A stretch of DNA of 64,000 nucleotides from positions 2,226,218-2,290,217 of the forward strand of contig CP075365.1 in NCBI GenBank assembly GCA_019454125.1, read 5' to 3'. The stretch comes from Fimbriimonadaceae bacterium. GTDB lineage: Bacteria; Armatimonadota; Fimbriimonadia; Fimbriimonadales; Fimbriimonadaceae. The stretch's first letter is position 1. Each line of letters opens with the position of its first letter. Under the pieces are notes generated by a model. That model saw only the letters and a list, made by a program, of their open reading frames with translations, did no database searches and had not been told where the DNA came from. A program made the translations under genes and the position numbers. Positions 33,308 to 33,941 of this stretch are shown piece by piece.

Positions 33308-33377
33308 GTTGGCAGTTGGCAGTTGGCAGTTGGCAGTTGGCAGTTAGGGGTTAGCAGTTAGGGGTTAGCAGTTGGGG
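33308..33377 (+). repeat. Left heptad array: 10 units of GTTRGSR
   Basis: Starting right after the groES stop: five GTTGGCA, then GTTAGGG, GTTAGCA, GTTAGGG, GTTAGCA and GTTGGGG, in perfect 7-nt register. The start codon TTG (33372) of the next gene lies in the last unit. The array is complementary in its GTTGG core to the right-hand array at 33774-33941. Confidence 0.95.
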
Positions 33378-33773
33378 ACGGAGAAGTTCAGGTACGAAAA
33401 GCTCGAGATCTGGCAGTTAGCCATGTCTCTCGTTGAAGCCGTCTATCGCGTCACCGCAACCTTTCCGCCGGCCGAGTTGTACGGCCTGACGGTGCAGATG
33501 CGTCGCGCTGCCGTGTCGGTGCCCTCGAACATTGCCGAAGGCTACGGGCGGCAGTCTCAAGCAGCATTCTCAAACCACGTCCGGATCGCGCGCGGCTCGC
33601 TGTACGAGTTGAGGACGCTCCTAGAGGCCGCCCGGCGGCTCTCGACGATTGACGATGAGGAGACGGACAGCCTCCAAGCCGAGATGGTGCTGCTAAGTAA
33701 AAAGCTCGACGCCTTCCTTAAGAGTCTGGAGAACGTCGTCGTGCGGGAAGAGACCGCTGCCTACAACAGCTAA
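33372..33773 (+). CDS. Four-helix-bundle protein (S23/IVP-like), inserted between groES and groEL
   Basis: 133 residues. TTG start within the repeat array; no better start exists because the domain begins at once (FRYEKLEIWQLAMSLVEAVY). Typical motifs of the family: LYGLTVQMRRAAVSVPSNIA and EGYGRQSQAAFSNHVRIARG, followed by a long C-terminal helix. Relatives are the proteins encoded in 23S rRNA intervening sequences and the Avd accessory protein of diversity-generating retroelements; they form basic pentameric barrels that bind nucleic acid. No reverse transcriptase is nearby. Location between two chaperonin genes and bracketing by inverted arrays are both unusual. Confidence 0.9.
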   Translation: MGTEKFRYEKLEIWQLAMSLVEAVYRVTATFPPAELYGLTVQMRRAAVSVPSNIAEGYGRQSQAAFSNHVRIARGSLYELRTLLEAARRLSTIDDEETDSLQAEMVLLSKKLDAFLKSLENVVVREETAAYNS

Positions 33774-33941
33774 CTAACCGCCAACCGCCAACCACCAACC
33801 GCCAACCGCCAACCACCAACCACTAACCGCCAACCACCAACCACTAACCGCCAACCACCAACCGCCAACCACCAACCGCCAACCGCCAACCGCTAACAGT
33901 TAACCGCGAACCACTAACCGCTAACCGCTAACAGCCAACAA
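33774..33941 (+). repeat. Right heptad array: 24 units of CYAACCR
   Basis: Immediately after the stop of the four-helix-bundle gene, 24 consecutive 7-nt units, mostly CCAACCG, CCAACCA and CTAACCG, ending 8 nt before the groEL start. On the other strand the units read CGGTTGG, i.e. inverted relative to the left array. Confidence 0.95.

Follow-up and report, generated by a model that had tools for sequence, protein, structure and literature searches.

A candidate mobile cassette between groES and groEL: an IVP/S23 gene enclosed by inverted heptanucleotide arrays

Introduction

What is a small gene of the IVP/S23 family, enclosed by two inverted arrays of 7-nt repeats, doing inside the groESL operon of a Fimbriimonadaceae bacterium? 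The locus lies in a stretch of 64,000 nucleotides of contig CP075365.1 (hereafter the window), for which the original prediction, made from the letters alone, proposed an insertion unit of protein plus flanking heptads that is tolerated in an essential operon by being removed or masked at the RNA level. The reading that we prefer, and to which we give a probability of roughly 0.55, is that the groESL feature belongs to a widespread kind of mobile intercistronic cassette, which has inverted tandem arrays (usually of 7-nt units) as its ends and a single IVP/S23 gene as its content, the IVP protein acting on the arms and helping them to spread. Three loose ends meet in this question: a protein family of solved structure that has remained without a function (2gsc/Xcc0516 and 2rld), the unexplained excess of heptamers in bacteria (PMC4692102) and the origin of the intervening sequences (IVS) of 23S rRNA (PMC4990558).

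Results and Discussion

The groES-groEL locus

The ten perfect GTTRGSR units that had been predicted directly after the groES stop are indeed present (33308-33377), in the order five GTTGGCA, then GTTAGGG and GTTAGCA in alternation, then GTTGGGG. The 133-residue S23/IVP-like gene also stands as described, with its TTG in the last of these units and the second array starting at the base after its stop (Table 1). This second array is less regular than had been claimed: of its 24 registers, all given as perfect CYAACCR units, only 19 are perfect and 5 are variants. It is the inverse complement of the 5' arm, with position 7 of the unit mostly mismatched, and the longest runs of heptad units in the two arrays are 10 and 17, against 1 in shuffled windows.

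Since a CIRCE-like operator and the only promoter-like site both precede groES, a promoter scan having found no such site within the groESL cassette, the three genes groES, IVP and groEL are probably expressed as one heat-shock transcript, and the inserted gene is probably under heat-shock control via this operator. No Rfam family matched at 32700-36400.

Table 1. Features of the groES-groEL locus, in positions of the window
Feature	Coordinates	Strand	Description	Basis
Promoter-like site	32903-32931		the sole one; just upstream of the CIRCE-like operator	
CIRCE-like operator	32934..32960	+	TTAGCAGTC-N9-GAGTGCTAA, one mismatch; upstream of groES	pattern match
groES	33014..33307	+	host gene upstream of the slot	ORF; orthologs in 60/61 family genomes
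groES stop codon	33305-33307	+		ORF
5' arm	33308..33377	+	10 heptads, all GTTRGSR, G-rich; directly after groES stop	
IVP gene	33372..33773	+	IVP/S23-like four-helix bundle, 133 aa; TTG start within last 5' heptad	ORF, profile matches, model
IVP stop codon	33771-33773	+	TAA	ORF
3' arm	33774..33941	+	24 heptad registers (19 exact CYAACCR, 5 variants), C-rich; from base after IVP stop	
groEL	33950..35581	+	host gene downstream of the slot; ATG at 33950	ORF

The IVP protein

Only one Pfam family, PF05635, scores above its cut-off with the groESL protein (E=2e-36, 124.8 bits against a cut-off of 33.8), and the protein also matches TIGR02436 (E=6e-35, 119.8 bits against 24). The predicted model of its 96-residue core (pLDDT 97) has a TM score of 0.93 with the crystal structure 2gsc, which is Xcc0516 of Xanthomonas campestris, crystallised in 2006, and of about 0.8 with Avd of the diversity-generating retroelements (4dwl, 8ub7). 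Searches with Pfam, the TIGR profile and PADLOC revealed no transposase or nuclease catalytic domain in it. The groESL copy is the single PF05635 gene of the window's 2.65-Mb genome; within the phylum such genes are present in 76 of 151 genomes, and dN/dS values of 0.07-0.42 between close pairs indicate that the gene is under purifying selection. Two other identities were considered and rejected: a known anti-phage defence system, no family of the PADLOC defence models having matched the protein at E 0.1, and a phage origin, no IVP relative having been found in 50,697 phage records.

Inverted arms at other IVP genes

The arms were compared at 96 distinct loci of the phylum, chosen by homology and not at random, by taking two 180-nt flanks, one ahead of the conserved domain and one following the stop, matching the first with the inverse complement of the second and setting each result against 200 dinucleotide shuffles (shuffle p-values floor at 0.005). 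Inverse complementarity of the flanks exceeded all 200 shuffles at 61 of these 96 loci but at only 2 of the 115 ORFs of the same contigs that served as controls, and similarity in the same direction did so at 4 of the 96. Moreover, at 57 of the 96 loci the score of the downstream flank belonging to the gene itself lay above the 99th percentile of the scores of flanks from elsewhere, and thus an arm matches its partner at the same locus and not the arms of other loci: by this comparison, the arms are locus-specific yet mutually complementary. The layout extends outside the phylum, to 54 of 80 IVP loci in a sample of Bacteroidota, Proteobacteria, Planctomycetota, Chloroflexota, Cyanobacteria, Clostridia, candidate phyla and one Methanophagales archaeon; at about one third of IVP loci the arms are not significant. 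The expectation that other IVP genes would be flanked by GTTGG-type arrays in inverted orientation is consequently borne out in its general part, the inverted arrays, but not for the unit, the GTTGG type being confined to the window's genome.

Among 164 loci, a period of 7 or 14 fits best in approximately two thirds of the detectable arrays, with 8 the next, and arrays occur in 6 of 313 control windows. At 96 of 103 loci the 5' arm is rich in G and poor in C. The sequence of the unit varies widely, with 69 distinct heptads among 78 period-7 loci, and the order of bases within it carries little information beyond composition (3.51 vs 3.21 +- 0.09 bits; AGT is enriched); in view of both these results, a shared recognition motif within the heptads was rejected. 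So was the idea that stop codons in the heptads account for the period of 7, there being no enrichment of them, and the idea that the heptad is dictated by the protein, since no relation to protein identity was detectable among distant loci. Recognition of the arms must therefore be either structural or absent. Within a single genome (G125) different IVP copies bear different arms. On a plasmid of Pseudanabaena galeata (L309:860-1110) the 5' side has AAAGCTA arrays in both orientations, so that one arm alone is already palindromic.

Empty, occupied and exchanged slots

The slots identified from the ends of the neighbouring proteins include groES-groEL, accB-accC, carA-carB and nuoC-nuoD, and annotation adds cas6-cas4, a tra operon, an integrase operon and nrdB-nrdA. 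Both occupied and empty alleles are known for groES-groEL, accB-accC, cas6-cas4, a tra and an integrase operon.

The comparison of groES-groEL loci with and without the insert, which had been proposed as a check, did reveal alleles of both kinds: in 22 genomes of the window's family the gap is filled by an IVP cassette, and in many others it is empty and measures 1-41 nt. One genome (G040) has instead an 85-nt gene-less remnant that keeps both arms, and the only other genome seen of the window's genus (G158) has no groESL cassette, with groES and groEL lying about 2 kb apart. Congeneric species whose GroEL N-termini are 99% identical nevertheless have IVPs with identities of only 38% (G178/G159) or 52% (G133/G051), and among the groESL loci the IVP and GroEL distances are uncorrelated (rho -0.1). 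Vertical descent of a single groESL cassette was rejected on these grounds. Within the 22 cassettes the 5' arm finds its best partner in its own 3' arm in 16 cases.

The accB-accC slot of the Xanthomonadaceae, occupied at 33 loci and mostly reduced to a gap of 4-12 nt in IVP-less relatives, gives a closer view of such exchanges. Pairs of species with 98.9% and 98.8% identical accC have cassettes that are only about 70% identical (at the level of the IVP) and arms of a different type; identity drops at the last accB codon and is back to 98-100% at the start of accC. In control pairs that share an arm type, identity is normal (99.3/98.3 and 94.4/93.4). The unit type (AAT/ATT and GGG/GTG) is the same in both arms at all 33 loci, with zero exceptions, even though the accC tree shows 8 and 7 changes of it, and both arms change together in every supported independent contrast (5/5 for each). 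Treated as a four-state character, arm type requires 14 changes on the host tree (13.6 when shuffled) but only 5 on the IVP tree, built on about 96 columns (13.7 when shuffled). Arm type thus follows the IVP tree and not that of the host, from which we conclude that, as reconstructed on these trees, arms and gene travel together as one unit.

Empty and occupied alleles are also found at four slots of cyanobacterial plasmids. The tra slot is empty twice in Nostoc C057, is filled in C052 and N. edaphicum by an IVP gene with GGGAACA arms, and in ATCC 53789 contains a gene-less hairpin with related arms. The junctions of the plasmid cassettes vary by some bases, and at the four plasmid slots and at accB-accC a target duplication is not clearly visible, the alleles having diverged and some target bases being missing. 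The comparison of alleles gives the picture of a unit that fills a fixed slot between a stop and a start, vacates it or is swapped within it, with neither neighbouring gene broken. The proposal of a general insertion unit, protein plus inverted heptads, is upheld by such sites and by the arms beside IVP genes in many phyla.

The cas6-cas4 gap deserves a separate remark. In plasmid pANA02 of Anabaena sp. 90 (L297:2120-2480) it belongs to a type I-D CRISPR operon and contains an IVP cassette whose 5' array, made of GGTGACA/GGGAACA units, is about 350 nt long. In Dolichospermum sp. UHCC 0315A (L300:1020-1270) the same gap has an unrelated insert with no gene in it and with GTAGGTTGGGTTG and the inverse complement of this sequence at its ends, and the gap may therefore attract several kinds of element.

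Gene-less copies and their association with the IVP gene

In the window's genome GTTRGSR units are present at five loci, groESL and four others, and a gene-less inverted pair of them lies between rpoB and rpoC (the genes being identified from the flanking ORFs). Gene-less inverted doublets of heptads, that is hairpins, are likewise found in Luteimonas and Xanthomonas. Those of Xanthomonas have a published history: Rehm et al. (2015) described GGGAATC heptamers at 186 and 183 sites in Xcc and Xac, with 70 and 75 convergent inverted pairs, mostly intergenic and placed with the G-rich unit just after stops and the C-rich one just before starts, as well as GGGGA(C/T)T heptamers in Nostoc; G-quadruplexes were proposed for the arrays and no function was found (PMC4692102). 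The accB-accC IVP gene of Xanthomonas is bounded by these same GGGAATC-type units. In X. arboricola the single IVP, an ortholog of Xcc0516 (E 1.5e-55), has GGGAATC arms, and the dimer GGGAATCGGGAATC occurs 188 times in this genome, against 0-3 times in 10 of the 14 genomes searched, those ten being outside this bacterial group.

How closely does the abundance of such arrays follow the gene? Among 50 Xanthomonadaceae genomes the median number of array dimers is 159 in the 30 with an accB-accC cassette and 1 in the 20 without a detected IVP (p=6e-9); dimer counts overlap inside arrays and hence measure array content, not the number of elements. IVP presence is scattered on the tree of this family, with 13 changes, and about 5 of 6 supported independent contrasts show array abundance changing in the same direction as IVP presence, with none in the opposite direction. 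An inner junction containing AGC is found in 22 of 31 gene-less arms and in 27 of 30 cassettes, the expected fraction being 0.21 (p=4e-9 for the gene-less arms). The type of the dispersed units correlates with that of the cassette (p=0.001, uncorrected for relatedness), although close tracking of the new cassette type by the dispersed arrays is not seen in recently swapped pairs. There is one exception: G249, a member of the Xanthomonadaceae, has 131 GKGAWTC array dimers and no IVP gene was found in it, which could reflect a recent loss of the gene, a gene that was missed or a genuine departure from the dependence.

By these counts, gene-less hairpins that have their units and inner junction in common with the cassettes are abundant where an IVP gene is present and nearly absent elsewhere, and for this reason we regard the Xanthomonas heptamers of 2015 and the Xcc0516 protein as parts of one system. 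Heptads that occur elsewhere with no such gene had been named among the grounds for abandoning the idea. Literally they do occur, but as gene-less hairpins that share the units of the cassettes and whose abundance is tied to the IVP gene, and they therefore extend the unit rather than refute it.

A possible mechanism

If the groESL feature is a copy of a mobile cassette, its history might be as follows. The IVP gene would have no promoter of its own and be read through from the host operon, here the CIRCE-controlled groESL. Its product, Avd-like in fold, would act on the paired arms, recognising the shape of the hairpin and the junction on its loop side and not a fixed sequence. It would be the specific factor, active also in trans on gene-less copies, and would promote the spread of the cassette and of its derivatives, with host enzymes doing the cutting and copying. 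The tandem units would let each arm lengthen or shorten independently by slippage (10 versus 24 units here) with pairing kept. Against this mobile-cassette reading stand the lack of a catalytic domain in the IVP protein, the want of a clear target duplication, the roughly one third of loci at which the arms are not significant, the lack of a relation between arm unit and protein identity among distant loci, the loose fit of dispersed arrays to the new cassette type in recently swapped pairs, and G249.

A broader claim can only be made tentatively, and we hold it somewhat more doubtful than not: that there is a class of mobile DNA, across bacteria and in at least one archaeon, in which a four-helix-bundle protein with no known catalytic domain spreads structure-recognised, hairpin-ended cassettes and their gene-less derivatives, and that this class explains much of the heptanucleotide excess of bacteria and is the source of the 23S rRNA IVS. 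Were the IVP protein to spread hairpins, it would constitute a mobile system that has no known transposase, lives in the gaps of essential operons and keeps the same layout of protein plus inverted arms in many phyla. Xanthomonas, with its one IVP gene and few hundred gene-less array copies, makes the question directly testable.

RNA or DNA?

The most serious alternative, which we nonetheless think improbable, is that the element works at the RNA level: the arms would pair in the operon transcript, the cassette would be cut out or insulated by RNase III, and movement, if any, would be secondary. Such a layout equals that of the Coxiella 23S IVS, in which RNase III cuts terminal inverted repeats of 28 bp (PMC4990558), and the same protein family is carried by 23S rRNA intervening sequences. 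Orientation agrees with it as well, since 70 of the IVP loci other than groESL lie in sense between co-directional genes against 3 in antisense (22 are mixed; outside annotated records the gene calls are longest-ORF guesses by a crude caller), and in X. axonopodis RNA-seq shows that G4-forming heptamer arrays are more frequent sites of transcript start or stop than control arrays (PMC4692102). The original prediction that the inverted arrays could fold the transcript holds in silico, the minimum-energy RNA fold of the groESL spacer pairing the 5' array with the 3' array (z=-2.9 against shuffles). With the gene included the fold has 69 arm-arm pairs, and over 164 loci the median of predicted arm-arm pairs is 44, compared with 23 when arms are swapped.

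The kinds of mismatch between the arms tell against this reading. Selection for pairing in the sense RNA should tolerate G-U in preference to A-C, but the two are found in near-equal numbers (156 vs 146 at 108 loci), with G-U the rarer at accB-accC (10 vs 19) and at groESL (16 vs 34). The complementarity of the arms is strand-symmetric, and 2 of the 6 annotated plasmid cassettes are antisense to the genes of their host operon. Nor can covariation be taken as proof of RNA pairing: this argument was rejected, the agreement of the accB-accC arms reflecting swaps of whole cassettes and the G-U test being negative. Given that there is no G-U excess over A-C, we do not favour or endorse the removal at the RNA level that had been suggested, even if movement of the cassette as DNA would not conflict with it. 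As to the form that moves, which may be single-stranded DNA or RNA, the strand-symmetric mismatches incline us slightly towards DNA.

Other explanations

It is still less likely that the IVP gene is a passenger or an ordinary regulator, which thrives in or needs such sites while another host factor, or recombination between short repeats, moves the hairpins and cassettes. The protein has no enzymatic domain, the junctions are imprecise and show no clear target duplication, and G249 has arrays with no IVP, all of which would be natural for a passenger. What a passenger should not do is to be followed by the abundance of arrays on the tree, be inherited with its arms as a unit and be the only gene common to cassettes across many phyla, as is the case for the IVP gene. 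Finally, ordinary heptanucleotide microsatellites, arising by polymerase slippage beside an unrelated gene, are very improbable: heptamers are over-represented among bacterial simple repeats, for which slippage has been proposed (cited in PMC4692102), and arrays do expand independently on one arm, but slippage alone does not account for complementary arrays flanking a single gene family, for the matched arms at 33 orthologous loci or for the link between the genome-wide number of arrays and the IVP gene, and the control comparisons of the arms already contradict it.

Comparison with known systems

How does the mobile cassette that we favour relate to elements already described? The 23S rRNA IVS of Coxiella burnetii has been called selfish, and it too has a PF05635 protein and terminal inverted repeats around an ORF inside an essential transcription unit (PMC4990558). 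The cassette differs in lying between protein genes (groES/groEL) and not in rRNA, in having tandem 7-nt arrays with their own sequence at each locus as arms, and in having dispersed gene-less copies; RNase III excises the IVS (PMC4990558), and the cassette resembles it in the layout of its arms and in their predicted pairing.

The REPIN-RAYT system (PMC3116915) shares with the cassette its dispersed extragenic inverted-repeat hairpins, a single-copy gene flanked by the cognate repeat and an abundance of repeats tied to that gene. As in that system, the repeat that flanks the gene is dispersed in the same genome (GTTRGSR in the window's genome, GGGAATC in X. arboricola) and forms inverted doublets (rpoB-rpoC here; Luteimonas and Xanthomonas). 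However, RAYT belongs to the Y1/HUH tyrosine transposases and the palindromic cores of REPs are conserved, while IVP has no HUH domain and its tandem heptads are free in sequence. MITEs and IS elements also have inverted ends, gene-less derivatives, and empty and occupied sites, but the cassette has no transposase domain (DDE, HUH, serine or tyrosine recombinase), no conserved end sequence and no clear target-site duplication. Avd has the same four-helix-bundle fold (TM about 0.8) and is a subunit of the reverse-transcriptase complex of diversity-generating retroelements (8ub7); the IVP protein scores just 13.5 bits with DivGenRetAVD, whose cut-off is 80, and neither a reverse transcriptase nor a template/variable repeat pair is found among its immediate neighbours, groES and groEL. 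The heptamers of Xanthomonas and Nostoc (PMC4692102) are the same arrays; the text of that paper does not contain the terms "four helix", "hypothetical protein" or "0516".

The cassette consequently does not fit the definition of any of the known classes that we checked, and resembles in its behavior a REPIN-RAYT system without the HUH transposase. Its parts are already known (the protein family, the structures, the Xanthomonas heptamers and the rRNA IVS), but the unit itself is apparently undescribed: a search of the open-access literature, with most subscription papers outside its scope, revealed no paper that connects PF05635 genes with heptad arrays.

A last observation concerns another repeat of the window's genome. 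Just 3' of groEL (35629-36278) there are tandem duplications of 124 and 97 nt, each with the palindrome GCCTCGGCACGCCCCGTGCCGAGGC. The same palindrome recurs in the locus of another GTTGG array (L001, about 1980-2180), and looks like a second dispersed hairpin family.
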